From positions 1-35,431 of the IMG/VR virus record IMGVR_UViG_3300018906_000018: a DNA stretch of 35,431 nt. One strand, given 5' to 3'. Shown here piece after piece: positions 16,460 through 33,403 of this stretch (the stretch's first letter is position 1; each line of letters begins with the position of its first letter). The notes under the pieces are model-generated. The model was not told the DNA's origin. It was given only the letters and a program-made list of their open reading frames with translations, and ran no database searches. The translations under genes were made by a program, and so were the position numbers. This DNA comes from a virus.

Positions 16460-17776
16460 ATGGTCAAAAAGTCGGGGGTTGGAAAATTACCGGGGGATGG
16501 GGCGTTCAAACCTAAAAAAATTCAAAAGTTTGGTGAAGCTCGACAGTCTAACCGTACAAGCTTTAGAGTACCTAAACCCGACAATGACCTCAGAAAATTA
16601 GACGATAAATGCGGGTTTGTCCCTGTCAATGATAGCCAAGATCTACTCGAAAAACGGGGACGTAAGACAGGTGAATTATATCTACCTGATCCGGTGGAAG
16701 TAACCAACTACAATTCTCAAGCGATACGGTACGAACGAAGTCTCGATTTAGAAATTGATAAAATCTATCAAGATAATAACGGTAGAACAATTTATGCATT
16801 TTGTTCTAAGAATAGTCCTTCTGGATTTTGGGAAGTATCAAGCATTAGTGGTACATTCCTTGACATCCCAAACCCTAATTTAACAATTATATGCCCCCGT
16901 CCATTTACCGCATCACAGTTGCTAGGGACAATTACAACAGACGGTACATCTTTCCGTTGGTCACAATTGCAAGGGCGTACAACGATTATATCTCCAAGTG
17001 AAGGAGACATAGCAAGCGGGGTATTAAATCCTACGTTTATGACGATAGGAGTGCCGTCTACGTTTGACCCACCTATTCTTTTACTGCTTGAGTTATTAGA
17101 TAATCCGCTAATCTTTAGGATTGTGCAAATTGTGACCACCCCAACTAGCGATAATTTCGGTAAAGATGTAGGGCAAGTAATGGTGGACATTGCACCCGAA
17201 TTTAAAGTAATTGAAATCATTCCCGCGCCATCCCGATTAACTGGTGCATCCGTTTATCGTGGTGAACAAATTTCATTTACTTGGAATCTACCGATTAACA
17301 ACGAATTTCTAAGAAGTTTTTCTCTGCTCCAAAATACAACCGGGACTTATACCCCATTAACAAATGTTTCTATCAATAATCGCTTATTTGCATTTGATGC
17401 AAACGCTTACTATCAAATCAGGTCAAATTATCAAGATCTTTTTGATAGTTTTCAAGCTGTTAGTGATTCTTTCGTTTTTCAATTTCCTATAGATTTTACA
17501 GGGCGAATATTTGCAGATGATACTATCAACAGCAAATCTCTATCAATTTGCAATGAGCAAAGCTACATCGATTACCTATTGCAAGTAATTGATAGAACGG
17601 GTCAAGATGTCTGCAACAGTAAAGCGGCATCAGTCTGCAATGAGCAAAGCTATATCGATTACCTATTGCAAGTAATTGATCGAACGGGTCAAGATGTCTG
17701 CAACAGTAAAGCGGCATCAGTCTGCAACGATACGAGTTATACTAACTACCAATTAGGTGGAATTGTAATCGGTTAA
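16460..17776 (+). CDS. putative tail protein with Cys-containing C-terminal repeats, 438 aa
   Basis: The first 60 residues are lysine-rich and disordered (MVKKSGVGKLPGDGAFKPKK). The centre (about 80-350) is beta-rich and Pro/Thr-laden, like fibre or baseplate-type modules. The C-terminus has two nearly identical 29-residue repeats, each with CNEQSYIDYLLQVIDRTGQD and CNSKAA segments, then a partial third. Three of the Cys positions recur in each unit, so disulfides or metal binding are conceivable. The next gene starts four bases after the stop. It is probably a tail or fibre component; the exact role is unknown. Confidence 0.65.
   Translation: MVKKSGVGKLPGDGAFKPKKIQKFGEARQSNRTSFRVPKPDNDLRKLDDKCGFVPVNDSQDLLEKRGRKTGELYLPDPVEVTNYNSQAIRYERSLDLEIDKIYQDNNGRTIYAFCSKNSPSGFWEVSSISGTFLDIPNPNLTIICPRPFTASQLLGTITTDGTSFRWSQLQGRTTIISPSEGDIASGVLNPTFMTIGVPSTFDPPILLLLELLDNPLIFRIVQIVTTPTSDNFGKDVGQVMVDIAPEFKVIEIIPAPSRLTGASVYRGEQISFTWNLPINNEFLRSFSLLQNTTGTYTPLTNVSINNRLFAFDANAYYQIRSNYQDLFDSFQAVSDSFVFQFPIDFTGRIFADDTINSKSLSICNEQSYIDYLLQVIDRTGQDVCNSKAASVCNEQSYIDYLLQVIDRTGQDVCNSKAASVCNDTSYTNYQLGGIVIG
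17549..17745 (+). repeat. 87-bp tandem repeat, two copies plus a partial third
   Basis: Starting at 17549, 17636 and 17723, spacing exactly 87 bp (29 codons, frame preserved). The first two copies differ at only a few bases, including TACATC versus TATATC and GATAGA versus GATCGA, so the duplication is recent. The third copy has diverged after its first few codons. Confidence 0.85.
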
Positions 17777-20510: not shown

Positions 20511-20742
20511 GTCCCGTTTTTGATTTTACAGTCAGATGTTTTTTAAGTTTGGACTTTGCACGAATCAAAATTTGGTTTATTCGTTCTTTTGAACAATCAA
20601 TTATCTGTGCGATTTCAGCTTTTGAGTGTACCTTATCATCCATCATGCCATAACGCAGTAATATTACTTTGGCTTCTGTTGGGAACAAAATATTAAATAA
20701 TTCTTTCGGATCAATTAACGGTAATACTTTAGTCATTTTCAT
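20497..20742 (-). CDS. sigma factor region 4-like protein, 81 aa
   Basis: Residues about 17-68 match sigma70 region 4: PTEAKVILLRYGMMDDKVHS, then an HTH with SKAEIAQIIDCSKERINQIL and basic IRAKSKLKKHL. Regions 1-3 are missing, so it is a domain-only protein. Such proteins may redirect host RNA polymerase or act as anti-sigma or appropriator-like factors. The start codon overlaps the PolB stop by one base (TAATG), so it is translationally coupled to the polymerase. It converges with the tail-fibre gene. A middle-to-late switch role is inferred. Confidence 0.75.
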   Translation of the reverse strand: MKMTKVLPLIDPKELFNILFPTEAKVILLRYGMMDDKVHSKAEIAQIIDCSKERINQILIRAKSKLKKHLTVKSKTGLRQT

Positions 20743-23700
20743 TAGTTTAATTCCTTGATGTGTACAATTATTTGATCGTGCATATCAGTCAATTCCTTGA
20801 TGTAGTAGTCAACATCATAATCACCCGATTGCACCATTTCGCCGCCCTTGCCGTAATAGTAAATCACCGGATCACCTTTCCGGACATTCAGTGCGATGCA
20901 AATAGTTTTTTCGTTAATGCGAACCTTCCGATTTATTCTCAAGTCTTCAATCGGATAAACACCGGACATAATCTTAAGCTCGACCTCCTTATGATATGCT
21001 TCGGCTTCACTTAACCCTTGGTTATTTAGTCGAATTAAGTATTCTTGCTGATATTTCTTTTGAAAAACTGATTTGTCCCGTTTGACATATTTACCCTTTG
21101 CTTTAAGTTGATATGTATTAGCTTCCCAAGTCAATTTATAATATTTTTGTTTGACTGATTCTTTAAGATTTGACAAGTCAATACCATGTTTTTTTGCTAT
21201 CACGATCAACAATTCTAATTCGACTTTTGTATTAGGATAATTGATCGCAAGATCATCCAAACATTCTTGGTTTAAATGTTTCAGTATGAATTGATGATAG
21301 TCGCTAACTTTCCAAATCAGTTTAAGGTAATTCTTTTTGATGGACTCGGTAGCGTCTGGAAATACAAACCCATGATTTTTGGCAGTGTCGCTTAGTAGAT
21401 CGAATGTAATTTTTGCGTCTGGTTGATTAGTTAACAAATCATCCAAACATTCTTGATTGAGGTGTTTTAAAACGAACTTCCGACCGTTCACACAATCAAC
21501 CTTATATGATTTGTTGTAATCGCTTTTAGTCAACTTACCAGGGACAAATAAGCATTTCATCGCCCCATCAAAATCGACTTTCATCATATCAGGCGAAGTT
21601 TGAATAACCCGTTGTGCGATCGCCGCTGCTGTTAACATTTCGGGACTAGCATCAGGAGGTAACTTCGACTTGTACTTGTCAGATAAACCAATCGTTTGCC
21701 AATCCGTTCGAGTTGTTTTGATGAAAACACTATCTGTATCACTCAAGACAACCGTGCCACCTAAATTCTCAACTTGCTCTCTCATCCACAGCAAACGCGC
21801 CCTTGAATAGCAAGTAACAAGTGCCGCCGCTATTGAGTCCCCGTAAGGGATCATACTAGCGTATGTACCGTAACAATTACGGGTTAAAATCCCGTTACCT
21901 AAAGTAAATGTGTGTGTTTCAGGTTCGACGCAACAATAAACTTCCTCAGTTAAGTTAGTTTCTTCAACTGATAATACTCTCCAAGGTGCTGACGTTTTTT
22001 TAATTCCATCAATTCTTGCTTCAAAATTATTACGATGAACACTCCTTAAAAAATCCTCAGACGTGAATTGTTCAATTTGAAATGCTACACGATAGTAATC
22101 AAAATTAACTCTTGATGTCCTTCCGTCTTTCCAAGTATGAATATTCCCTTCAGTATTAACAAGAAATGGTTTGAATCCTTTAAACCCTATTCTTGGAACT
22201 ATTTTATTAAGATAATCACAAACAAATTCTTGCATAGTAAAGCAAGGGTTAGCTGATTTTTCATCACTAATTGTCCCGTCGGTTGTCAATAGACCTCTAA
22301 AAAAACCTAATAAATAACTATTACTTGATTCTAAAGGAGGTAAATCCTTTAATTCAATGTGTGAATATACCCGAATAGCTCGTACATTTGGATCTTTATA
22401 ATTGTTATCTTCGGTATCGCGCCTTGCTGTAACTATCACATTATTTGCTTTATCAAAATAATGTTCAATTTCTTTTTTATTAGCGATTAAATCGATTACA
22501 AATGCTTGTCCCTTTTCAGGATTGTAATTAATTGCCTTTCCACTACAAAGCTTTTTTGATCCATCACCATAAATAATCCCGTGAATTACACCGTTAAAAT
22601 AATCCTGGTTAGTATCATCAGGTTTAATAGATACAACATTGGGGACTAAATCGCCGTACCTACCTTGATTCAATTTCGATGTGGTAACAACTTTTGAACA
22701 TTCTTTTTGATGTTGTTTGTAATATTTGTCATAGGTTTGAATCTCCCATTCGTGATCGGCTGTACAATATATTTCCTCAATTTCTCGCTTCCGTTTCATT
22801 CTCACTTTATATAGCTTTTGGACTCCATAAGATTTGAATTCAACCTCTACCCAATTACGATTTTTATTGAGTACGTTTACTTTCCGTCCTACTAAGTCAA
22901 TAACTGGATATGTCCCTTTGTCGGTCAGCACTAAAGTAGAATCTTTGAGGCAACTATTTACAACGGGTTTGACAATCGTTGCAAATTGTTCTTCCTCCTC
23001 TGTCATATCCCCTTCATCTTTATATTTAATCGAGTTTCGGAAGTCTACAGCCCATTGCAACAGACTGAGCAAATGTTTATCAGGATCGTTACTCGAAGTA
23101 ATTCCATATTGAAGCATTGATGAAGGGTATTGACCGGACACATCGATCCCGATTACATCTAAATGCAACCCAGCAAGTGAAAATGTAAATGCGCCTTGAA
23201 ACTGTAGTTTGTCATTCTGTTCGGTTTTCTTTTTTGCGCCATACAAATTATCTAAAAGCTTAAGGTTTTTAGTCGCGTTGCCTGCGGTAACTAGCTCTTG
23301 AAGATTGAATTCTGGATACATCAACTGTTGGTAATAAATACCAGGCAACAGCTTTTTCGCGATTAACTCGGTATCATCCAAGTCATCGACTAAATAATCC
23401 GTTAGTAACTGCCAATTCTCTGCCTCATAGCAGGCTTCTAACTCTTCGGGTGTTAGTTCTACCCTATCCCCCGCCTTCCTCAGTCCCAGTTCAACCGGAA
23501 CTGACTTCAGCTTGTAGTTCGATAGCTTCCTCATGATCGAATCAAACCCGATCGCCAATTGCATCGTGTCAATCAATTGGATTTTCTTCTTAACTCCATT
23601 TGTCCAGACATTGCCATAAACAGGGGTAAACCATTCATTTTGTTTTGATCCTGCGATTGCTGCCGCCCCAAATCGTTTTTGTCTATCAGATACCCAAAAA

Positions 23701-24248
23701 GGACAGCGCACGTCTTCCGAAACGTTATGACCTGATAGCCCGTATTGAACTCCTTTGTAATAAAGATAAGGCAAGTCAAACCCTGTCCCGTAGTGCGTAA
23801 AAATAATATCAGGCTTTTTTTGGTTGATTAATCTGAAAGTATCACATAAAATCTTGTATTCATTATCGTTCCCATAAAAGACGCGTCTTGCACCCGTATC
23901 CGACTTGAGACCAACCATTTTGATTGACCCGTTCTTGACTATATCTTCTATCCCCTTCCCTTTGTTCAGTGTGGTCTCAATGTCCAGTACGATATAAGAC
24001 AAATCTTCGAACTTCCGCGCCGATCCGTTAACTGTGAAGGGTTTTAATTGGTAGTCGGCTTTAGCAAAAATATCAATTTTTCGTTCAGGCGGTGTAATCA
24101 CTCGACCATTAATTACGGTACATAAGTCCCGGATTTGATGCGGTTGAATAGAGTAGTCTGGTATATCCGACCAATCACCCAATGCAGTTAGTGTGTTGTG
24201 TTTGATTGCTGATTGTAAATCTTGATCGAGAATATTTAAAGTCGTCAT
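20742..24248 (-). CDS. polB: family B DNA polymerase containing an intein, 1168 aa precursor
   Basis: Exonuclease motifs are LDIETT (88-93; Asp89, Glu91), HYGTGFDLPYL (Asp158) and Y285-x3-D289. Polymerase motif A is GIDVSGQYPSS (367-377) and motif B is KPVVNS (427-432) then CYG, interrupted by an intein at 433-791. Motif C is LSDTDS (835-840). All catalytic acids are present, so an active proofreading polymerase of about 809 aa should result after splicing. The C-terminal region (about 924-1047) has a tandem duplication of about 62 residues. It starts 19 bases after the DndC-like gene and is coupled to the sigma-like gene. Confidence 0.95.
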   Translation of the reverse strand: MTTLNILDQDLQSAIKHNTLTALGDWSDIPDYSIQPHQIRDLCTVINGRVITPPERKIDIFAKADYQLKPFTVNGSARKFEDLSYIVLDIETTLNKGKGIEDIVKNGSIKMVGLKSDTGARRVFYGNDNEYKILCDTFRLINQKKPDIIFTHYGTGFDLPYLYYKGVQYGLSGHNVSEDVRCPFWVSDRQKRFGAAAIAGSKQNEWFTPVYGNVWTNGVKKKIQLIDTMQLAIGFDSIMRKLSNYKLKSVPVELGLRKAGDRVELTPEELEACYEAENWQLLTDYLVDDLDDTELIAKKLLPGIYYQQLMYPEFNLQELVTAGNATKNLKLLDNLYGAKKKTEQNDKLQFQGAFTFSLAGLHLDVIGIDVSGQYPSSMLQYGITSSNDPDKHLLSLLQWAVDFRNSIKYKDEGDMTEEEEQFATIVKPVVNSCLKDSTLVLTDKGTYPVIDLVGRKVNVLNKNRNWVEVEFKSYGVQKLYKVRMKRKREIEEIYCTADHEWEIQTYDKYYKQHQKECSKVVTTSKLNQGRYGDLVPNVVSIKPDDTNQDYFNGVIHGIIYGDGSKKLCSGKAINYNPEKGQAFVIDLIANKKEIEHYFDKANNVIVTARRDTEDNNYKDPNVRAIRVYSHIELKDLPPLESSNSYLLGFFRGLLTTDGTISDEKSANPCFTMQEFVCDYLNKIVPRIGFKGFKPFLVNTEGNIHTWKDGRTSRVNFDYYRVAFQIEQFTSEDFLRSVHRNNFEARIDGIKKTSAPWRVLSVEETNLTEEVYCCVEPETHTFTLGNGILTRNCYGTYASMIPYGDSIAAALVTCYSRARLLWMREQVENLGGTVVLSDTDSVFIKTTRTDWQTIGLSDKYKSKLPPDASPEMLTAAAIAQRVIQTSPDMMKVDFDGAMKCLFVPGKLTKSDYNKSYKVDCVNGRKFVLKHLNQECLDDLLTNQPDAKITFDLLSDTAKNHGFVFPDATESIKKNYLKLIWKVSDYHQFILKHLNQECLDDLAINYPNTKVELELLIVIAKKHGIDLSNLKESVKQKYYKLTWEANTYQLKAKGKYVKRDKSVFQKKYQQEYLIRLNNQGLSEAEAYHKEVELKIMSGVYPIEDLRINRKVRINEKTICIALNVRKGDPVIYYYGKGGEMVQSGDYDVDYYIKELTDMHDQIIVHIKELN
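21107..21478 (-). repeat. coding tandem duplication in the PolB C-terminus
   Basis: Two units of about 62 residues (about 924-986 and 987-1047). Both carry the identical block LKHLNQECLDDL and similar later parts (SIKKNYLKLIW versus SVKQKYYKLTW). The DNA has diverged, so the duplication is not recent. Confidence 0.75.
21876..22952 (-). mobile_element. intein with LAGLIDADG-type endonuclease in polB motif B
   Basis: Residues 433-791 (359 aa) of the PolB precursor. Block A starts CLKDSTLVLTDKGTYPVIDL and block B is CTADHEWE. Two LAGLIDADG-like motifs, YFNGVIHGIIYGDGS (550-564) and YLLGFFRGLLTTDGT (645-659), both keep their Asp. Block F is EEVYCCVEPETHTFTLGNG and the end is ILTRN before Cys792. 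The penultimate residue is Arg, not the usual His, but Cys1, the block B His, the terminal Asn and Cys+1 are present, so splicing is still plausible. The insertion lies between Ser432 and Cys792 of the conserved N-S-x-Y-G, a known intein hot spot in family B polymerases. Confidence 0.92.
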
Positions 24249-24267
24249 TTTTTTATTCTTGTATTGT

Positions 24268-25257
24268 TTACTTACTCTGCCATTTGATAGCGTTTAATTC
24301 GTTATCAAAAATCCAAGATTGCTTATAAGTCGGAGGATATGCACGTCTCGCTAATAAAGAATCAACCAATGTGATGACATCTTCATCAATCCATTTATTC
24401 TCAAGCATTGCAGGAAAATATTTTTTTAATTTCCCCCAAAAGTCAATCCTACTATCTACTAAAATTGCCCCCGCTTTTTTGGTTTTAGGCGACAAAATAC
24501 GAGGAGCATTTCTTAGTTGTTCGATTAATTCTCTTATTTTGATGGAAAATTCTGGAATAGTGCCATCCGTTACTTGTTTATCAATCCGAGCTTTAGCAAC
24601 AACGGGACACATAAAACAACCCATCCGAAGGCTACCACTTTGCGATTCTTGTATATCATAAAGTTTGAGAAGATTATCAGATACTCCTTGATATAGATAT
24701 GTGTCCCCTCTTTCGATTATCCAATCCCAAACATCGCAATTATTCCAAACTGCAATGGGTTCAATTTTGTTTGTAATTTTGTCGATTCCGCACTCGATAC
24801 TTCCGCAACCATTTAATCTGTTGTCTCTAGTGTGCGATTCCCCTTTATGAGATCCCGCAATGACTACACCCTTGTTGGCTTTCATCGGTTCTACTTTTAA
24901 ATACTTAGTACACCAACGATTTTTATAATCGGGTACTGGGTATCCTAAACCAACCAATAAGACCCAAAAGTTTTTTTCAAGAGAAGGTTTAACTTTGAGA
25001 AAATTATGATGATTGATTTCTATCGAATTATTTATATTTTCTATCAACTTTAATAGTTGAGTAGATTCTAATAGTGTGTCCGAAAAAACAACATTAGCAT
25101 TTAATTTATTTTCTGTGATTTGGCACCAATGAAAATATAATCCGAGTAACACATGAGAATCTTTACCTCCACTGAAGGCAATACTATATTTTAATGACTT
25201 ATCTAATGAATTAAATACTTCAAAAGTCCAATCGGTTAAGTCGTCGAGTCTAGTCAT
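24268..25257 (-). CDS. DndC-like PAPS reductase family protein, 329 aa
   Basis: ATP pyrophosphatase-type P-loop SGGKDS (29-34), then VFSDTLLES, FWVLLVGLGYPVPDYKNRWC, TKYLKVEPM, GSHKGESHTRD and RMGCFMCPVV. This series, especially the F-W-V...G-Y-P-x-P...RWCT block and the late C-x2-C, is closer to DndC of DNA phosphorothioation than to CysH. DndC binds an iron-sulfur cluster and activates the DNA backbone for sulfur insertion. No DndB, D or E is in the window. The start ATG 25257 is preferred over TTG 25335 because the extension would cross an inverted repeat. AGGA lies eight bases upstream. It is followed by polB. Confidence 0.85.
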   Translation of the reverse strand: MTRLDDLTDWTFEVFNSLDKSLKYSIAFSGGKDSHVLLGLYFHWCQITENKLNANVVFSDTLLESTQLLKLIENINNSIEINHHNFLKVKPSLEKNFWVLLVGLGYPVPDYKNRWCTKYLKVEPMKANKGVVIAGSHKGESHTRDNRLNGCGSIECGIDKITNKIEPIAVWNNCDVWDWIIERGDTYLYQGVSDNLLKLYDIQESQSGSLRMGCFMCPVVAKARIDKQVTDGTIPEFSIKIRELIEQLRNAPRILSPKTKKAGAILVDSRIDFWGKLKKYFPAMLENKWIDEDVITLVDSLLARRAYPPTYKQSWIFDNELNAIKWQSK

Positions 25258-25296
25258 TGTATTTATCCTATTATTAATATTTATTTTTGAAAAGTC

Positions 25297-25330
25297 CCAG
25301 TATACTTCTAGTGAATCATTAGTATACTGG
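25297..25330. repeat. inverted repeat between the putative DNA-binding and DndC-like genes
   Basis: CCAGTATAC (25297-25305) and GTATACTGG (25322-25330) flank a 16-base spacer. It lies between the stop at 25344 and the ATG at 25257. It could be an operator or an mRNA hairpin. There is no long U-run, so it is a poor terminator. Confidence 0.6.
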
Positions 25331-25343
25331 CACAATTGATAGA

Positions 25344-26504
25344 TTAGAAATTGGTATCGTCAGATACTACGGATGCGGTTGATCGTTCTTTAGCGATACT
25401 TTCGTAAATAGCTAAAAAGGACGCATCATTAAGGGAATCCGGTTCGATCCATTCGTTCAATTGCAAGTTCTCAATGTCACTTTCAGACATCCCAAAAACC
25501 TTTAACAATCGATCCTCTAACAAATCAGCAAACACCCGATTAACTTCATAGATTGTTAATTCGCTTGGCTTGCGTCCGTTCCATCCTTTTTTTAAATAAT
25601 CGATAATTTGAATCGTCGAAACATCCAATTTCAATCGAAAGTTTTTAACCAATTCATTATGGTTATTGTTGGAACTTTCAAACGGATCGCCGCCGCTATT
25701 TTGTTGGAGATTGGTTGTAGGTTTATTTTCTAATGTTTTCACCTTCCAAAAATCAACTTGCTCATCAAATATCGCTGTAATCTCATGTGCTAATTCCGAC
25801 CGACCGAGACAGAATTGCTCCCACGTTTCCTTAGTTGAAACTTTATACCCATAAGTCACACAAGCAGGGGACTTAGTAGCATCATCTTTGCCGCGCATTT
25901 CGGACTTGAACGTTGGGCAAAATATCCAGACAGAATGCCATTTGTCATTTTTGGCTTCAGGACGTTTCCCAGCTAATTCCGAGTAAAGCTGTTCGCAATG
26001 TTTCCTGTAAGAAATTTTTTGGACGGTTAAATTTTTACCACCTAAAATCAACACTTGCTCAAAACTAATCGAAAAATGCCCACGCGCCTTAAGTTGAATA
26101 GGCGTTAAATGATACGGCTGATTATTGGCGTCAAGAAAAATAAGCTGATACATCCGGACTGCTTTATTTCCAGCGGATTTATCTCGTTCGTTATTCCATA
26201 ACCCGATAATTTTCTTCAGTTTATCTTTTGTCTCAGCCAGCAACGGTGAGCGCCCAACAATGAGCAACTTTGGTTCACGAATCAAGACACCGGGAATCAT
26301 TTTAAAGTCACCTGCATCATTAATGACCTCGCGTGTTTCCACATTATGCAATGACCCCGGTTCTAACCACCGGGACTCATCCCAACCAACCAACTCTTGA
26401 TTGTCATGCGCGATCCATAATCCAGCGGGTTTATTTATTGCCTTAGCTGATGCTGTGCGTTGAACGTCTGATCCGTTATCGTCACCGTCAAAATTAAAAG
26501 CCAT
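25344..26504 (-). CDS. putative DNA-metabolism protein, DUF5895-like, 386 aa
   Basis: The first about 240 residues are globular (AGLWIAHDNQELVGWDESRW, then GVLIREPKLLIVGRSPLLAE) and recall a cyanobacterial family of unknown function that I believe is DUF5895. A linker rich in Asn/Gln/Ser (about 255-285) leads to a C-terminal helical domain (TIQIIDYLKKGWNGRKPSEL). The layout of fold, disordered linker and acidic end (SDDTNF) resembles a single-strand DNA-binding protein, and it lies in the replication operon. That role is an inference. A 40-bp repeat precedes it (26529-26568). Confidence 0.6.
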   Translation of the reverse strand: MAFNFDGDDNGSDVQRTASAKAINKPAGLWIAHDNQELVGWDESRWLEPGSLHNVETREVINDAGDFKMIPGVLIREPKLLIVGRSPLLAETKDKLKKIIGLWNNERDKSAGNKAVRMYQLIFLDANNQPYHLTPIQLKARGHFSISFEQVLILGGKNLTVQKISYRKHCEQLYSELAGKRPEAKNDKWHSVWIFCPTFKSEMRGKDDATKSPACVTYGYKVSTKETWEQFCLGRSELAHEITAIFDEQVDFWKVKTLENKPTTNLQQNSGGDPFESSNNNHNELVKNFRLKLDVSTIQIIDYLKKGWNGRKPSELTIYEVNRVFADLLEDRLLKVFGMSESDIENLQLNEWIEPDSLNDASFLAIYESIAKERSTASVVSDDTNF

Positions 26505-26528
26505 TTGATTTACTTTTGCTTTGAGCGT

Positions 26529-26568
26529 TTGGTTTACTCTGAAGGTTTAACCACCGACCTACAAGGAC
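26529..26568 (-). repeat. 40-bp direct repeat, copy A (leader of the 386-aa gene)
   Basis: Identical over 40 bases to 26815-26854 and followed by related sequence. In transcription sense it contains GGTTAAACC and precedes the ATG at 26504. It could be a shared 5' leader, a regulator site or an RNA element. Confidence 0.8.
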
Positions 26569-26584
26569 GAATCGAGAGCGTAAG

Positions 26585-26800
26585 TTAGAAACCTGAACTA
26601 ATATCAATTGGTGAATTTACGTTTAATTCAATTGATTCAATTTCAAAATTCTCATAATGACCTAATGGTGTTTGATTTAATCTTTTTATTTCTTTTTTAG
26701 CGTCCGATTCGGAATCGTAAACACCTTGTATACTTTCGTATAAACCTATAGCATTAGATTTACCAAGAATGATGTAAAGCGTTTTTAAATTATTTCCCAT
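26585..26800 (-). CDS. hypothetical small protein, 71 aa
   Basis: A small acidic alpha/beta protein (MGNNLKTLYIILGKSNAIGL, then YDSESDAKKEIKRLNQ). The helix-strand order suggests a compact domain. Both ends of the gene are bounded by the 40-bp repeat copies, as if the gene had been inserted between two identical leaders or the leader had duplicated with it. Function unknown. Confidence 0.6.
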   Translation of the reverse strand: MGNNLKTLYIILGKSNAIGLYESIQGVYDSESDAKKEIKRLNQTPLGHYENFEIESIELNVNSPIDISSGF

Positions 26801-26814
26801 TGTTTTTTTTACAC

Positions 26815-26854
26815 TTGGTTTACTCTGAAGGTTTAACCACCGACCTACAAGGAC
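26815..26854 (-). repeat. 40-bp direct repeat, copy B (leader of the 71-aa gene)
   Basis: Perfect match to copy A, 286 bp away. It lies between the stop at 26870 and the ATG at 26800. Confidence 0.8.
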
Positions 26855-26869
26855 AAACCGAGACAGATG

Positions 26870-27571
26870 TTAGAATCCGATTGCAAACTTCATTTCTTGT
26901 TCATGTGTTTTCTTAATTGCAACTACCGCTGTTTGAAGACTTGCGGTGTACTTCTCTGGTGTTAACCGACCACCAATAGACATCTGGTAATAAAAGCTTA
27001 ATGTCTCTGTCTTGTAAGTAATTTTACCGACCACCGCATCTGTAAGCCTTTCTGAAATTGTGATTGTGTTTTCGTTTAAGTTCGTTGTGTAGTGTGAACC
27101 GAGAAGTAACCTGACATCGTTATGTGTCCCTGTCATTGTTGAAGTTTCGATTACTGGTTTAACCGTGCGTTGTTGTGATTCGATGTAACCGTCTATCGCA
27201 TACTCTACCGCTTCTTCGAGTGAAGTAAACGAACGGTTTAAACCGTAATTTGACCGGACTTCGATTGAACCGTTAGCGCTGATTTTAGCAATTGTTTTAC
27301 CGTTAAGCGATACACCGAGTTGTTTAGTGAATTGGTCAGTGATTGAAAACTGAAAGCGAAAGTACTTGTTTTGTAACGTTTGCACTTCCTGAAAGAATCT
27401 AATGTTTTCCGCTTTAGCCGCCGCCCGGACTTCGCTTTCGATTATCGCGTCCACTACCCATGATTTAGCCGTCACCACGTCTACCGTTTTTCTGAGGTCT
27501 AATCCTGAGAGGGACACATTGTATTGTTTGGCTAGTTTGCGGAGGTAGTAAGCGGGGCGGGTAAGTTTCAT
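26870..27571 (-). CDS. hypothetical protein, 233 aa
   Basis: N-terminal basic helical part (MKLTRPAYYLRKLAKQYNVS), then a central beta-rich domain (FRFQFSITDQFTKQLGVSLN) with an apparent internal similarity between residues about 65-110 and 140-190. No catalytic motif. It has the best-spaced promoter of the early region (TTGCAC, 17 bp, TATAAT at 27603-27608). It starts its own unit after a terminator. Function unknown; DNA binding is possible given the basic N-terminus. Confidence 0.7.
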   Translation of the reverse strand: MKLTRPAYYLRKLAKQYNVSLSGLDLRKTVDVVTAKSWVVDAIIESEVRAAAKAENIRFFQEVQTLQNKYFRFQFSITDQFTKQLGVSLNGKTIAKISANGSIEVRSNYGLNRSFTSLEEAVEYAIDGYIESQQRTVKPVIETSTMTGTHNDVRLLLGSHYTTNLNENTITISERLTDAVVGKITYKTETLSFYYQMSIGGRLTPEKYTASLQTAVVAIKKTHEQEMKFAIGF

Positions 27572-27602
27572 TTGGTGGGTGTCCTTTGCTGGTGATATCT
27601 CT

Positions 27603-27631
27603 ATTATAATAGAGAATTTTCAATTGTGCAA
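27603..27631 (-). promoter_or_regulatory. sigma70-type promoter for the 233-aa gene
   Basis: On the leftward strand TTGCAC (27626-27631), 17-bp spacer, TATAAT (27603-27608). The -10 lies in the palindrome CTCTATTATAATAGAG, so the same hexamer also reads rightward. The leader is about 25 nt. Confidence 0.8.
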
Positions 27632-27647
27632 TAGAAAAACAAAAATA

Positions 27648-27670
27648 AAACCGATTTGCTAGATCGGCTT
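27648..27670 (-). terminator. intrinsic terminator after the DUF932 gene
   Basis: 8-bp stem around CCGAT (27651-27655)/ATCGG (27662-27666) with one wobble pair, followed in leftward sense by UUUUAUUUUU. It separates the DUF932 gene from the next promoter. Confidence 0.75.
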
Positions 27671-27675
27671 TAATC

Positions 27676-27686
27676 TGACTATCAAA
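27676..27686. repeat. gene-end element, reverse copy
   Basis: TGACTATCAAA, the exact reverse complement of TTTGATAGTCA, seven bases past the stop at 27694. Confidence 0.5.
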
Positions 27687-27693
27687 TTTTTCT

Positions 27694-28581
27694 TTAGAAA
27701 CCTGCAACCATAACCCGTTGAATATTGTCTATACGAGTCCTTGCTGAACCATGCAAGATTGACAGGAAGCGCTGGTTTTGCGCCTCTTGCAGGTCATTAG
27801 ATGCCTTAGCCGCAACGTCATGATTATAATATTCGGTTACAGCGTTAAGCAACCCGAATCCCGTCCCTTGCGCCGTCTGTAGGTTAGCCCCTATCCCTTC
27901 ACCTTTGAACTTAGCCATCACCAAATCGGTCACTTTAGATTTAGTGCCGAATTCCTTGATTAGAATCCTACGCGCTTCAATTTCTGAGACTTGCACCTCT
28001 GCCATTTTTTCGAAAATACGCGCTTGAGTATTAATCAACTTAGTAACTGATAACATCACTTTTTCAAGATTCCCTAAATTGACCGAGTTTGACTGGTGAT
28101 TAACTACCCCTACACGATTTTGAACATCTTGCACCATCCCGTTAAGACATACCAACCTGGTAAACTCGACAGACACGCCTAAACCTTCATTGGGGTTGTG
28201 TGAGTCCCTGATTATCATTCGCGCGCTTACGCTGTCATGTTGATCGGCAAGTTTTTTAGACACGGACACATCTTGACCGACGCCAATAATCGAATGTTTT
28301 CCACCGCTTCTCACACCCGTTAGCTCTTGACCGGATGCTTCAAAAATATCCTGAATCAAATGCAACATATCGATATTTTGGCGCGGATTGCGATCGGCGT
28401 AAGTTCCAATTAATTCGGCTTGACCGTTAGGTAAATCGCGGTATACGTCTGTTTTATTGCTCTTGAATTGTCCAAAGTCCCCGAAGCGATGAACTGATGA
28501 TTTGATAGGATAATCTAATTTGAGCGCTTCAAGAATTTCGTTATCGGATTTATCATTGCCGTTAATTGTATAGCTAGCCAT
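27694..28581 (-). CDS. DUF932 family protein, 295 aa
   Basis: Family features are EFTRLVCLNGMV near the middle and TGFGLLNAVTEYYNHD near the C-terminus, as in phage/plasmid-like DUF932 proteins. The start is at ATG 28581 (MASYTINGNDKSD), not at the upstream codon in the same frame. The promoter TTGCCG, 17 bp, TATAAT (28612-28640) lies inside that upstream extension. The molecular role of DUF932 is not established. These genes recur on plasmids and phages with replication or partition genes, as here next to the ParB-like gene. Confidence 0.85.
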   Translation of the reverse strand: MASYTINGNDKSDNEILEALKLDYPIKSSVHRFGDFGQFKSNKTDVYRDLPNGQAELIGTYADRNPRQNIDMLHLIQDIFEASGQELTGVRSGGKHSIIGVGQDVSVSKKLADQHDSVSARMIIRDSHNPNEGLGVSVEFTRLVCLNGMVQDVQNRVGVVNHQSNSVNLGNLEKVMLSVTKLINTQARIFEKMAEVQVSEIEARRILIKEFGTKSKVTDLVMAKFKGEGIGANLQTAQGTGFGLLNAVTEYYNHDVAAKASNDLQEAQNQRFLSILHGSARTRIDNIQRVMVAGF

Positions 28582-28611
28582 TGTGTGTCCCGTGTGTAAT
28601 GTTCTTTTTCG

Positions 28612-28640
28612 ATTATAATACAATATATTTAAGACGGCAA
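28612..28640 (-). promoter_or_regulatory. sigma70-type promoter for the DUF932 gene
   Basis: TTGCCG (28635-28640), 17-bp spacer, TATAAT (28612-28617) on the leftward strand. The leader contains GGGAC seven bases before the ATG. Confidence 0.8.
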
Positions 28641-28649
28641 TAGGCAAGC

Positions 28650-28673
28650 AAAAAAAGACTCTTGATAGAGTCT
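28650..28673 (-). terminator. intrinsic terminator after the ParB-like gene
   Basis: AGACTC (28656-28661) with GAGTCT (28668-28673), loop TTGATA. The A-run at 28650-28656 becomes a U-run in leftward RNA. Confidence 0.8.
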
Positions 28674-28681
28674 CAATTTTA

Positions 28682-28692
28682 TTTGATAGTCA
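28682..28692. repeat. gene-end element TTTGATAGTCA
   Basis: 11-bp word, seven bases past the stop of the ParB-like gene (28700). Confidence 0.5.
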
Positions 28693-28699
28693 GATGTTT

Positions 28700-30001
28700 T
28701 TACATCATCAGCGACATAATAGAATCTAACTCTTCTTGATCGACCATCCCGATTAATTCAATTAACTTTTGTTTAATCGCTGGCTTGTGTTCGTCGTTAT
28801 CGCTCATGATATTCACAAACCGTAAGAGATAGTTGATCGGTAGTGTCGTTTCAGCGTTGGCACGGAACTGTTCAACCGTCATTTTTGGCGCTTCTTGTGT
28901 TTCTTCCGAAGTTTCTTTTAATTCTATATCAAGAGCATCAAACGTTGAACCAGTAGAAGTATTAGAAGCTTTAGCCGATCGGGACACTCCAACTTTAGAA
29001 GGATCAAACGATCCTTCAGTCCCGGTTGTTTCCGCTAATTCTTCAAGTTGTTCGGTTTGAGTCGTTGGCAGTTTAACTATTGGTTCCGTTGGTTCCCACT
29101 TCATAAAGTTAGGACTCGCTAATGTCTGATTCTTAGAAATCAAATCATCAAGAATCGCATCGGTAGAAACATTTAGGACGGTTGCTCTATTGGCTAATCG
29201 GAAGATTGCACTAGCACTGATTTGACCCTCTGCATATAATTGCTCAATCCGTGGTGATAGCGCCTCAACGATAGTGACAGCCATTGCAACGTCATTTCGG
29301 TTGAGTCCGAGTTGAATGTTAATGTTTTCGATCGCTTGGGTACGAGCGAAATTTGACTTAGACCTATCATCATTAACAAGCGGTGGGAAGTAGGGATAAT
29401 CACCTGATGCAAGAATCGTGGTGTATTCTTCTTGTAACGCTTCGACAATCCGTTTCTGTTTGATTAAAGCGTCATGCTTCTGTGTCGTGTCGTTGTCGTT
29501 ATACTGCAAGCGCTCTGCTTCTCGCTTGGTTAAATCTCCAATGATTCGTTCGTAAGGGACACGCTCAAGTATAACACCTTGTTCATGCAATCGTTTCGCT
29601 GTCCAGAAGCGGTTGTTTCCTTTAATAATTATCCACTTACCGTCAACCTCCCAAAATAAGAGAGGATGTTGGATCATGTAGATATTTTTGCCGTCTGTAC
29701 CTGGGAAGCACAACATTGTCTCATATTCTTCGATTTTATCTTCAGGGATTCCATTAGTCCCTCGAACATACCAGTCAGGACGATATTCAACCAAGGGAAC
29801 AGCTTTTTCCAGAATAACATCGAACTCTGCATAACTAAATTCGCCTGCTTTAGCTCTCCATCCGATTAACGGTTGTTCGGACTCATCTGACTTGACAACA
29901 GGCTTTTTCTTAGCCGCTGGTTTCTTGGTTGTCGTTTTTTTGGTCGTAGACGCTATTGGTTTTTCTGTGACGGTTGAAGCTGGCTTTTTAGCTGTGGTCA
30001 T
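28700..30001 (-). CDS. ParB-like nuclease-domain protein, 433 aa
   Basis: The N-terminal 45 residues are Lys/Thr/Pro-rich, like a histone-type tail (AKKPAST, KKTTTKKPAAKKK). The ParB/Srx-like domain follows, with WIIIKGNNRFWTAKRLHEQG (about 122-141) in place of the usual G-x-R-R box. Then come a helical part with YNDNDTTQKHDALIKQKRI and an HTH-like region (FARTQAIENINIQL, GLNRNDVAMAVTIV). The C-terminal 130 residues are linker and helix. No ParA is in the window, so it may be a centromere-free DNA-binding protein, a regulator or a nuclease. Its own promoter is TTGACA, 16 bp, TATGAT. Confidence 0.8.
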   Translation of the reverse strand: MTTAKKPASTVTEKPIASTTKKTTTKKPAAKKKPVVKSDESEQPLIGWRAKAGEFSYAEFDVILEKAVPLVEYRPDWYVRGTNGIPEDKIEEYETMLCFPGTDGKNIYMIQHPLLFWEVDGKWIIIKGNNRFWTAKRLHEQGVILERVPYERIIGDLTKREAERLQYNDNDTTQKHDALIKQKRIVEALQEEYTTILASGDYPYFPPLVNDDRSKSNFARTQAIENINIQLGLNRNDVAMAVTIVEALSPRIEQLYAEGQISASAIFRLANRATVLNVSTDAILDDLISKNQTLASPNFMKWEPTEPIVKLPTTQTEQLEELAETTGTEGSFDPSKVGVSRSAKASNTSTGSTFDALDIELKETSEETQEAPKMTVEQFRANAETTLPINYLLRFVNIMSDNDEHKPAIKQKLIELIGMVDQEELDSIMSLMM

Positions 30002-30039
30002 TGGAGAATCTCTTAAATGTGTTTTGTCTGTCTGTAACT

Positions 30040-30067
30040 ATCATATTATATTCGAGAGCGTTGTCAA
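30040..30067 (-). promoter_or_regulatory. sigma70-type promoter for the ParB-like gene
   Basis: TTGACA (30062-30067, consensus), 16-bp spacer, TATGAT (30040-30045). A TATAAT overlaps at 30045-30050 but would have only an 11-bp spacer. The leader is about 35 nt. Confidence 0.75.
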
Positions 30068-30096
30068 CTGTTTTTCAAAAATAATTTGATAATCAA

Positions 30097-30122
30097 ACAA
30101 AAAAAAACCGGGGATACCCGGT
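30097..30122 (-). terminator. intrinsic terminator after the 131-aa gene
   Basis: ACCGGG (30107-30112) with CCCGGT (30117-30122), GATA loop, A-run just left, so a U-run follows in leftward RNA. It separates the upstream unit from the ParB promoter. Confidence 0.85.
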
Positions 30123-30135
30123 AAAGCCATCGCAT

Positions 30136-30531
30136 CTAATTGTTTTCCTGATGTCGCCTGATGGCTGCATGATAAAACATATACGTCTGTGTCCCTAGTT
30201 GTAATCGGAATGCTTTAAGTTTGATATCTACGGACTTATCCAACGACACGACGAAAGTTTGCACCTGATGTTTAAGAGTTGATCGATCAATAGATACAAT
30301 ATCATCGGAGGTAATATCGTCTGCTTTCAAGTTGTCTACCGTTAGTCTAAAACCAGCAGATAAATTTCCTTTGCCGATATCTAATAAATATTTTCGTTGT
30401 TCGAGTGTTATTTGAATTGGTAAGGTGCAATACTCTTTAAATATTTTGTTGTTACCCCAAGATCGAGGCGATCCGCCTCTGCCCACACCGCGCATTATTT
30501 TATTAGAAGTCGATACCGTTGCCGTTGCCAT
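30136..30531 (-). CDS. hypothetical protein, 131 aa
   Basis: Basic N-terminus (IMRGVGRGGSPRSWGNNK), then two segments of similar layout: LPIQITLEQRKYLLDIGK with GNLSAGFRLTV, and FVVSLDKSVDIKLKAFRLQ with the following helices. The strand-helix-helix order recalls ribbon-helix-helix regulators, but I cannot identify it firmly. The start overlaps the end of the preceding gene by 29 bases. A small DNA-binding regulator would fit the early position. Confidence 0.65.
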   Translation of the reverse strand: MATATVSTSNKIMRGVGRGGSPRSWGNNKIFKEYCTLPIQITLEQRKYLLDIGKGNLSAGFRLTVDNLKADDITSDDIVSIDRSTLKHQVQTFVVSLDKSVDIKLKAFRLQLGTQTYMFYHAAIRRHQENN

Positions 30532-30802
30532 TTGACACCTTGCCTTTATATACGTTTAATATTTGTGGACTAACGGTAGAATTATGCTCTAATTCTTCCG
30601 ATATAGCTACTTGTACAATGTAACGCGCTTTATCTAAAAGAGAAGATCCAATAGATTGCAATCTATCAAGTTGATCGTGATTACCATCTATTTCCACTTC
30701 ACCGGACACATTTACACCGACTTGTACAGAAGAATAATTACCGAGGTTTTTAGTTTCGGAAAAACTAACATTCACCTTAACTATTCTTAGTTGATCAGAC
30801 AT
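30503..30802 (-). CDS. hypothetical small beta-rich protein, 99 aa
   Basis: Residues about 8-40 give two strands (RIVKVNVSFSETKNLG, SSVQVGVNVSGEVEI) followed by helices with LDRLQSIGSSLLDKARYIV. This 'N-L-G-N-Y-x-S-V-x-V' layout is known from many small phage and plasmid proteins without assigned function. It overlaps the next gene by 29 bases. A promoter candidate (AAGACA, 17 bp, TATAAT at 30827-30832) lies just upstream within the spacer and primase 3' end. Confidence 0.7.
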   Translation of the reverse strand: MSDQLRIVKVNVSFSETKNLGNYSSVQVGVNVSGEVEIDGNHDQLDRLQSIGSSLLDKARYIVQVAISEELEHNSTVSPQILNVYKGKVSNGNGNGIDF

Positions 30803-30826
30803 TTTCTATTGTATCAGAATAATTCT

Positions 30827-30855
30827 ATTATACTATTGAAATTAAAAAATGTCTT
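30827..30855 (-). promoter_or_regulatory. promoter candidate for the 99-aa/131-aa unit
   Basis: AAGACA (30850-30855), 17-bp spacer, TATAAT (30827-30832), followed by AGA as in the shared TATAATAGA type. The -35 overlaps the last codons of the primase gene. Confidence 0.6.
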
Positions 30856-33403
30856 TTGTGTCCGTGGGTTTAGCTTTAAATTTAATACCCCATACAACCG
30901 TTTCTAATTTCTCGCCTATCCGGACTTGTCTAGCAGCTCCTTGGGTATTTCGATGATTCGATTGCACTTGAGCCATCAACGCCCCATCTGGATGCGCGGT
31001 TTTTACATCAGCTTGAAACTTCTTAACCAGTTGAAAAGTGTTTAATTTTCCAAGATAGCTGTCATTTGTCAAACGTGCGTAATCTTGTAATTCTCTGATT
31101 AAGTCCGAACGCAATACATAGTCATCGTCTGATTGTCCTACCTCAAGCTTTTCATGAGCAAACTCGATCATTGGCGCTTCTGATGCAATTTCTGCCGCAA
31201 GTTTATCCGTTCGTGATTTGTCCTCTGTATATCCTTGGAAACGCTCAAGCAGTTCGTCTTCATTAACGTTTTGCAATGTCCACATAAACCATTGGCGCAT
31301 CGCAGTAGCATTATCAAAAATCGACATCATTTCTTGTTTAATCTCAGGAAACTTTTTAGTTCCCCATCGTAGCTCAACTCCAACAGCACGACGTTGCATC
31401 CCTGACTGATCATTCCGCAAATGTACCGGGAATTTCTCGGACGTAAACGCAAAAGTCGAATATCGCTTGATAGTCGTGCTATTCATATACTTTGCCGAAT
31501 GCTCAACGTATGAATCTTCTGTAAGAAGTTCATACAGCTTATTCATTCCTGCATTGTTAACGTCCCTAACATCATCGATGTATAGACTGTGGACACCCTC
31601 ATGGTACTTACTGAACGGATAACGGTCATTCATCATATCCGTTGCCTGAATCGATATGACAGCAGAAGGGTCAATCAATCGCAAAGCTTTACAAACCATA
31701 CTTTTTCCACTGCCAGGATCTCCATAAAAAAACATTCCAGCCGACCACCTATCGCCACGTCGTAAGAATGTCGCATATGCCCAATCTCTGATAAGTTGCC
31801 AGTCAGTAGGATGCAAGTACGCCCATTTCTTTAGCAACGCCTCAACCCGATCATTAATCGTCAAATCAACCAAGCTAAAATTGTAATCCATCCGATAGAA
31901 ACAAAACTGCTCAGGACTTGGTTCTAACAACTTTTTCGCTTTAATATCATAAGTCCCGTTTTTAAAACCAATCAGATTGCGATCAACTTCTAAAGGTTTT
32001 TTAATAGAATATTGGGGTTTGGTTGGGATAACCTTTTTTGCTAGGTTGTCCATCAGTCGCAACAGGGACTCATGAGATTCATCAGCCAATTCCGTCATAA
32101 GAGGGCTAAGGCATCGGGCGATTAAAGTATTCGTTGAAAGCGTCCTGTCCCATACTTTATCGATTAAATCCCAATAATAAAAAACGTTCTTTTCGGTCTT
32201 GTCGCCTAAGCACTTAACGTAATTTGGCAAAATTTCATGCCAATTCGTCTCATCAGCATCGAATTTAAATGGTTCTAATTCCAGCGCTTGACAAATATCA
32301 CTTGTAGCTTTAAAAAATGCGTGTCCCTTCAGGTCAACTTTGTCCGGTTGTTCACCCCCGGACGCAAAAATAATCTGACGGACATATAACTCTACAAGAT
32401 TCATTGTGCGCTCACCGCCCTTGTGAGTCGCCAATATCTTACCGGACTTACCCGAATGATAAACCGCAAGTCCTGTATCAGACTGGGCATCCGGGTCAAA
32501 CATTTCAGCACGACACTCCCATTGATCTTCTACCCCATGTGATCCACCCTTCTTTGACCATTCAAAATTGGGAAAGAGTCCGATTACAATCTCTTCAAGC
32601 GTTTTGTTCTGTAGCAAATATTGGTCAAATCTATATGAAAGGCTAGTTTTGTCCTTCTTTTCTGCTTTGCAGCTAGCCTTAGTTTCTTCCACCCGTTCCT
32701 TAATAATTTGTTGCAGAATCTCCTTATGAAGATCAACGTCAATTACCTGTCTATCATCCCGTTTAATGTACCGTTCATCGGTAAACAAAGGATTCTTACC
32801 GTAGAATTCCCACCGAGGGGACACAACCGCATGATCATAATCGAACGAACCACACATCCGGTCAAGGAATATTTGACGATATCGCTTAATAAAGTGATTG
32901 GCAATCGGTACAGGCATCCGAAAAAGATAATGCATCTTTGCTACGTCCCCGTTAACCTCACCTTCTTGAGAGGCTGACGGGTAAAAGATCCAAGCATTAT
33001 CTTTTATATGCTGTGGCGTTTGATTGAACGATACTTTATCTACATCCAACAACACGACATCGGTCATTTCGATCATCGCATCATCTACCGTACGCCGTCC
33101 TTTTGAATCAGTAGGCTTACCTTTGCGGTTAAGATGTTGTCCTGAGGCTTGCTCTTGTATCGATTTTTCGAGTGCTTCCTTTGATGCTATGCCCCAAATT
33201 ACATCCTTACCGTCAAGATGCGCTCTGATGGCATCCTCTAAGATGCATACGTCCCATTCACTAAAGAGAGTCCAATAGTACGGTTTGCGCGTCTTGAGCT
33301 TTCCCACGACCTCTCTATTTACCAAGTATCCGCTGATACCCGAAGAATCTTTAGAAGTATTTTTATCTGAGTTGCCGTTATCGTTAGAATTTTGTGATAG
33401 CAT
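30842..33403 (-). CDS. primase-helicase (AEP-type primase plus D5-type SF3 helicase), 853 aa
   Basis: The N-terminal part has LLDVD (118-122, D-x-D) and HAVVSPRWEFYG (191-202), as in archaeo-eukaryotic primases of phage and plasmid replicases. The D5-type middle begins IGFKNGTYDIKAKKLLEPSP (478-497). SF3 helicase motifs are GDPGSGKS (561-568), SLYIDD (606-611) and TFAFTSEKFP (650-659), with QRRA (670-673) as possible arginine finger. It should prime and unwind DNA for PolB. It has its own promoter and a leader with two competing hairpins. It starts with ATG without a strong ribosome site. Confidence 0.92.
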   Translation of the reverse strand: MLSQNSNDNGNSDKNTSKDSSGISGYLVNREVVGKLKTRKPYYWTLFSEWDVCILEDAIRAHLDGKDVIWGIASKEALEKSIQEQASGQHLNRKGKPTDSKGRRTVDDAMIEMTDVVLLDVDKVSFNQTPQHIKDNAWIFYPSASQEGEVNGDVAKMHYLFRMPVPIANHFIKRYRQIFLDRMCGSFDYDHAVVSPRWEFYGKNPLFTDERYIKRDDRQVIDVDLHKEILQQIIKERVEETKASCKAEKKDKTSLSYRFDQYLLQNKTLEEIVIGLFPNFEWSKKGGSHGVEDQWECRAEMFDPDAQSDTGLAVYHSGKSGKILATHKGGERTMNLVELYVRQIIFASGGEQPDKVDLKGHAFFKATSDICQALELEPFKFDADETNWHEILPNYVKCLGDKTEKNVFYYWDLIDKVWDRTLSTNTLIARCLSPLMTELADESHESLLRLMDNLAKKVIPTKPQYSIKKPLEVDRNLIGFKNGTYDIKAKKLLEPSPEQFCFYRMDYNFSLVDLTINDRVEALLKKWAYLHPTDWQLIRDWAYATFLRRGDRWSAGMFFYGDPGSGKSMVCKALRLIDPSAVISIQATDMMNDRYPFSKYHEGVHSLYIDDVRDVNNAGMNKLYELLTEDSYVEHSAKYMNSTTIKRYSTFAFTSEKFPVHLRNDQSGMQRRAVGVELRWGTKKFPEIKQEMMSIFDNATAMRQWFMWTLQNVNEDELLERFQGYTEDKSRTDKLAAEIASEAPMIEFAHEKLEVGQSDDDYVLRSDLIRELQDYARLTNDSYLGKLNTFQLVKKFQADVKTAHPDGALMAQVQSNHRNTQGAARQVRIGEKLETVVWGIKFKAKPTDTKDIF

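Follow-up and report, generated by a model that had tools for sequence, protein, structure and literature searches.

Phages commonly carry stand-alone "PAPS reductase/DndC" genes, whose usual labels place them in sulfur metabolism, as auxiliary metabolic genes (AMGs), or in DNA phosphorothioation. Lone phage genes of this kind have been reported with their function left open (PMC11437467, PMC12429752, PMC13299392), and many are annotated as APS/PAPS reductases (PMC2920897, PMC11309003). The literature found holds no biochemistry for the family of lone DndC-like phage proteins. For DndC itself, a "distinct dyad of cysteines" has been proposed as the sulfur carriers (PMC10853773).

The gene compared here with these systems lies on a viral contig of 35,431 nucleotides (IMG/VR record IMGVR_UViG_3300018906_000018), the whole of which is called the window. 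Beyond earlier reports, the analysis separates the enzyme from DndC and CysH residue by residue, places it in a close clade seen in virus contigs only, and describes a methyltransferase fusion and a quantified proximity to methyltransferase genes.

The gene and its surroundings

The window terminase matches that of Synechococcus phage S-EIVl at 41% identity, and the polymerase is about 30% identical to polymerases of Anabaena and Nostoc phages. Since both have their relatives among cyanobacterial phages, the virus is probably a cyanophage. The enzyme gene, on the minus strand, starts with an ATG at 25257, preceded a short way upstream by the ribosome-binding-like sequence AGGA, and its stop codon ends at 24268. 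It lies upstream of polB on the same strand. The polB ATG at 24248 bears out the 19-base gap given in the initial annotation, and the motifs listed there are all present, namely SGGKDS (S29–S34), FWV (97–99), GYPVP (105–109), RWCT (114–117) and C214/C217. The features discussed below are:

20742..24248, minus strand: gene of a family B DNA polymerase that carries an intein-like insert, starting 19 bp downstream of the enzyme gene
24268..25257, minus strand: gene of the stand-alone DndC-sister PP-loop/[4Fe-4S]-type enzyme, 329 aa, assigned from families, alignments, cysteine test, tree and model
24607..24618, minus strand: C214-x2-C217 codons, the other two proposed Fe-S ligands, in 90/90 homologues
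24733..24807, minus strand: codons 151–175 with the viral-lineage cysteines C151, C156 (ECG) and C174 (NCDVW)
24907..24918, minus strand: RWCT codons, R114–T117, with C116 as first proposed Fe-S ligand and T, not C, at 117
25156..25173, minus strand: SGGKDS ATP-pyrophosphatase (PP-) loop codons, S29–S34, invariant in the 90/90 homologues compared
25344..26504, minus strand: DUF5895 protein gene, upstream of the enzyme gene, not a conserved partner

The intein-like insert of polB covers approximately residues 432–793, and its tblastn match is a Thermobifida phage ribonucleotide reductase gene. Elsewhere in the window, an 87-bp tandem repeat of about 2.5 copies (17542..17755) lies close to the end of an ORF at 16460..17776 on the plus strand, and RmrA and other regulator-type PADLOC models match one or a few of the 29 ORFs outside 20742..33403 (best E 9e-13).

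Relatives of the enzyme and its separation from DndC and CysH

Pfam assigns the enzyme to PF01507 (PAPS_reduct; 50.5 bits, E 3e-13) and to no further domain, and PHROGs groups it with phage families named "phosphoadenosine phosphosulfate reductase". The PADLOC DndC profile matches its N-terminal two thirds (86 bits, E 6e-25), the match ending at profile position 263 of 481, while the BrxP and SspD models reach 53 and 33 bits on the PP-loop domain only. Among NCBIfam models, the DndC model TIGR03183 reaches 77.7 bits, its cutoff being 290.4; cysH-type models reach 19–24 bits, with cutoffs of at least 154, and the TtcA model gives an E of 0.065. A PDB sequence search found no relative beyond the PP-loop. 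Judged from the Pfam and PADLOC DndC matches and from the full-length viral relatives at 55–59% identity described below, the homology is far beyond chance.

Relatives in annotated phages of Thermus, Pseudomonas, Rhizobium and Microcystis are 24–28% identical. Much closer proteins were recovered from IMG/VR by alignment-based viral scans; single-sequence viral scans with P0001 and with the DUF5895 protein returned no matches. This close clade comprises L009/L170 (59% identity), L171/L173 (57%), L172 (56%), L012 (47%), L011/L178 (44%), L010 with its copies L175/L176 (43%) and L180 (35%). Its members at 55–59% identity are full-length, keep the motifs and lie on other viral contigs. At 35–59% identity, the clade was found in viral contigs only. 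In the genome collection, none of the best 80 loci among the matches listed is closer than about 33%, and 386 genomes of Leptolyngbya's phylum yielded no close relative at E 1e-20 in a search that had no positive control of its own. A cellular origin was rejected on these two results.

Residues were compared in one alignment of 90 homologues, made up of 13 DndC, 38 viral and 39 other rows. The DndC set consists of 13 dereplicated genome loci with an adjacent dndD, and Salmonella DndBCDE served as annotated reference. The PP-loop SGGKDS and the cysteines C116, C214 and C217 occur in all 90, including 13/13 DndC and 38/38 viral rows; the three cysteines, present as residues, would be suited to a predicted [4Fe-4S] cluster. 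A further pair of cysteines (ECP and PSCG) is found in every DndC and in 0/38 viral rows, the window enzyme having a gap and Ser207 in these columns. It matches the published dyad (PMC10853773), an identification made here by alignment. Conversely, C156 (ECG) and C174 (C-x-VW) are present in 37/38 viral rows and 0/13 DndCs. Viral proteins also have a cysteine at or near C151 that no DndC has, and in alignment A4 C151, C156 and C174 are all invariant. Position 117 is Thr in all DndCs and in 37/38 viral rows, and Cys in 25/39 of the other homologues.

Scores and phylogeny agree with the residues. With the two main PADLOC DndC models, true DndCs score 489–653 bits and the window clade at most 86. 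In a quick-method tree, whose branch support is provisional, the enzyme belongs to a viral clade of nine rows (96*) apart from the DndC group; the DndCs and a large phage clade form separate groups, and E. coli CysH falls outside on a branch of 4.15. The initial annotation had called the protein DndC-like. A partnerless PP-loop enzyme related to DndC it is, and the name stands to that extent; true DndC was rejected for it, given the missing dyad, the score below the cutoff (about 78 bits vs 290), the different lineage cysteines and the clade of its own. On residues, score and tree, the enzyme is a sister of DndC and distinct from it.

The two types can also occur together. Contig L172, of viral origin and 188.9 kb in length, carries a window-clade enzyme and a dyad-bearing true DndC of 521 aa (598 bits; L172:13837-15402, minus strand). 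This DndC adjoins a helicase-like protein, with a DUF5131 protein nearby, and no DndE is detectable in the contig. The cyanobacterial genome G051, reached via the Symplocastrum locus L090, encodes a DndC-DndD fusion of 1296 aa (L184:553-4443, minus strand) and a separate phage-type stand-alone enzyme (L185). As a viral contig and a cyanobacterial genome each hold both types, these are distinct families able to coexist.

An assimilatory APS/PAPS reductase acting as an auxiliary metabolic gene is barely credible here. The PF01507 domain at 50 bits and the APS reductases among the fold matches described below speak for it. Against it, the loop reads SGGKDS, where E. coli CysH has SSFGIQ(A), and the last cysteine is C217 of 329 residues, so the enzyme has no counterpart of the C-terminal ECGLH of E. 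coli CysH. The cysH-type scores (against cutoffs of at least 154) and the tree point the same way, and assimilatory PAPS reductase was rejected on these grounds. Clustering with such reductases, which the initial annotation had named as one result that would count against its proposal, was not seen.

Partners, methyltransferases and restriction sites

The initial annotation saw no DndD/DndE or SspB/SspC partner, and this observation holds. DndB, DndD and DndE are absent from the window by tblastn, PADLOC found no DndD, DndE or Ssp partner among the window proteins scanned, and neither Ssp nor BREX partners were found in the window. DndE (PF08870) occurs in 0/45 virus records (the window and 44 related ones, some of which may be fragments), in a search whose positive control was detected in 5/7 cases. 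The aminotransferase-V (cysteine desulfurase) family is likewise missing from the 45 records. The DUF5895-like and ParB-like proteins had been put forward as alternative working partners. DUF5895 was found in only 5/45 records and PF02195 (ParB_N) has no match in the window, so neither is a conserved partner and both were rejected; ParB proximity in other records is weak (3/7 within 5 kb, p 0.07). No neighbouring gene recurs generally across the close clade.

The idea of a minimal phage DNA-sulfuration (phosphorothioation) system is unsupported in the form first proposed: it does not follow from an enzyme that lacks the dyad, scores below the DndC cutoff and sits in its own clade. That the protein is a true one-gene phosphorothioation enzyme, relying on host DndDE and IscS to sulfurate phage DNA, is very unlikely as well. 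DndC is indeed the nearest characterised relative, IscS can replace DndA (PMC10853773), and some cyanobacteria carry DndC-DndD. Yet the dyad common to all 13 DndCs compared is missing, together with much of the C-terminal region of DndC, and L172 holds a true DndC in addition to the window-clade enzyme.

An association missed in the initial annotation is with DNA methyltransferases. L011 encodes a fusion in which the enzyme runs on into a D12 N6-adenine DNA methyltransferase (PF02086, 163 bits), and so does its near copy L178. The two contigs are related and come from one metagenome, so this fusion is probably a single event. Of the phage records that encode at least one of three DNA methyltransferase families, 9/27 have a methyltransferase no more than 500 bp from the homologue (0.85 expected); after dereplication, and with random placements allowed to overlap the methyltransferase, the count is 7/22 (1.7 expected, p = 6e-4). 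DUF5131, the other frequent neighbour, is within 500 bp in 1/13 records (0.63 expected) and within 5 kb in 8/13 (2.35 expected). DUF5131 is close only regionally, so the methyltransferases lie closer than sharing a variable region would by itself lead one to expect. Isolated phages have the same arrangement: a DNA methylase gene comes after the enzyme gene in Mae-JY29 and phiC725A, and before it in RR1-A. The proximity may nevertheless reflect shared moron hotspots, at one of which Burkholderia phages carry a PAPS reductase and a DNA methylase (PMC2920897). Most close-clade contigs have no methyltransferase near the enzyme gene, and the window has no match to the three families searched. Fusion and proximity together suggest, more concretely than the other evidence, that the substrate is DNA.

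One apparent fusion signal was discarded. The PADLOC model PDLC03333, labelled type II methyltransferase ("MTase_II"), has matches in P0001, L172 and L184; it matches full-length true DndCs at 321–357 bits, and its label looks wrong.

Redox, small-molecule or regulatory chemistry without any nucleic acid modification has a minor but real chance of being the enzyme's function. Chemistry of this sort has been proposed for the PAPS-reductase-like protein IbrA. PP-loop ATPases are chemically diverse, the neighbours in the close clade are not conserved, and the role of phage PAPS-reductase homologues was left open in PMC11437467. The full conservation of the enzyme core in 90 homologues and the non-random methyltransferase link argue against it.

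Restriction sites set limits to any protective role. Since the window has no GGCC at all (0 vs 82 expected, both strands) and almost no GGWCC (2 vs 34 expected), the enzyme does not broadly protect such sites from restriction. GGCC is also avoided in the clade members L170, L171, L012 and L180. A broadly protected phage would not need such avoidance, and any modification would therefore be local, sequence-specific or for another purpose. The palindromes CTGCAG, ACCGGT, CCCGGG, CAGCTG, TGCGCA and GGTACC have no site in the window either. The window does have more GGGAC than expected (109 vs 61.6 under a Markov model, z about 6), an excess that the initial annotation had tentatively linked to the enzyme. 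Among the enzyme-bearing clade members it is essentially missing: the observed/expected ratio is about 0.85–1.0 in L170, L171, L172, L012, L010 and L011, and L180 has a weak excess (33 vs 23.7). The link is unsupported, and GGGAC was rejected as the enzyme's site.

Proposed chemistry and comparison with known systems

An AlphaFold2 model of the enzyme has a mean pLDDT of 88, with low confidence in the C151/C156/C174 region. Its best fold matches are LarE-[4Fe-4S], APS/PAPS reductases, TtuA, NcsA and other PP-loop enzymes, at TM-scores of about 0.33–0.41 on the query. LarE-[4Fe-4S], TtuA and NcsA have a sulfur-transfer site with a three-cysteine [4Fe-4S] cluster; their cluster-cysteine spacing differs from that of the window enzyme, and they are known to act on a cofactor precursor or on tRNA. 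In TtuA-type thiolases the three-cysteine cluster leaves one iron open, and APS reductases have a four-cysteine cluster. The Thr after C116 is consistent with the former type instead of the latter.

RNA modification during infection, thiolation or other, of host or phage tRNA, in the manner of TtcA, TtuA and NcsA and for instance against tRNA-cleaving defences, is unlikely, yet a serious candidate. The tRNA thiolases TtuA and NcsA are among the best fold matches, and no partner protein would be needed. Nonetheless, the sequence is nearest to DndC and not to TtcA, fusion and proximity involve DNA methyltransferases, and the window contains no tRNA gene.

The function, predicted from sequence, is best explained, tentatively and with a chance a little short of even, by a phage-borne stand-alone PP-loop/[4Fe-4S]-type sulfurtransferase, a sister of DndC, that would thiolate nucleic acid, most likely phage DNA, with host sulfur. 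It builds on what was observed: the family membership and its residues, no detectable partners, and the methyltransferase fusion and proximity. For the cluster, the sulfur source, the role of the trio, the chemistry and the DNA target, the following scheme is proposed. The SGGKDS loop would bind ATP and adenylate the target oxygen. C116, C214 and C217 would hold a [4Fe-4S] cluster whose fourth iron stays open, Thr117 occupying the position of a fourth ligand, and a sulfide on this open iron, supplied by a host cysteine desulfurase, would displace AMP. The viral trio C151/C156/C174 may fill the relay or structural role of the DndC dyad, and the target would be nucleic acid, most likely phage DNA, within methylation-based anti-restriction equipment. 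It is distinctly unlikely, though conceivable, that this amounts to an undescribed DNA modification, namely a single-gene viral thiolation with sulfur on base or backbone, independent of DndDE/SspBC and sometimes guided by a fused methyltransferase.

Compared with known systems, the enzyme shares with DndC, the sulfurtransferase described by TIGR03183 and PADLOC PDLC02661/PDLC02662, the SGGKDS PP-loop, the series FW(V)...GY..P...RWCT, G...ES..R and R-x-GC-x2-C, and the same three Fe-S-type cysteines; it differs in the missing ECP/PSCG dyad, the shorter C-terminus, the additional C151/C156/C174, the absence of DndD/DndE partners and its own viral clade. With BrxP of type 4 BREX and with SspD it has the PP-loop/PAPS-reductase domain in common and, by Pfam, no added domain such as the DUF4007 fusion or the cysteine-rich region; its 329 aa leave no room for the DUF4007 fusion and added domains of BrxP (PMC12839542). 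To LarE-[4Fe-4S], TtuA and NcsA the modelled likeness is one of PP-loop fold, at a moderate TM-score only. By its core, its viral cysteines and the absence of Dnd partners, the enzyme belongs to the family of phage "PAPS reductase/DndC" morons (phrog_12882, phrog_424). These morons, found in Burkholderia phiE125, Thermus Tsatsa, Rhizobium RR1-A, Pseudomonas phiC725A and Sinorhizobium AP-20-A, are likewise stand-alone with the same core; those aligned have the viral C-ECG-C-x-VW cysteines and often lie near DNA methyltransferases. From the large phage clade, the window clade is set apart as a separate branch (21–29% identity) in probable cyanophages. As the catalytic features of CysH and the dyad of DndC are missing and a separate viral trio is conserved, neither usual label fits, and the residue comparison provides a simple sequence test for re-annotating lone "PAPS reductase/DndC" genes of phages.
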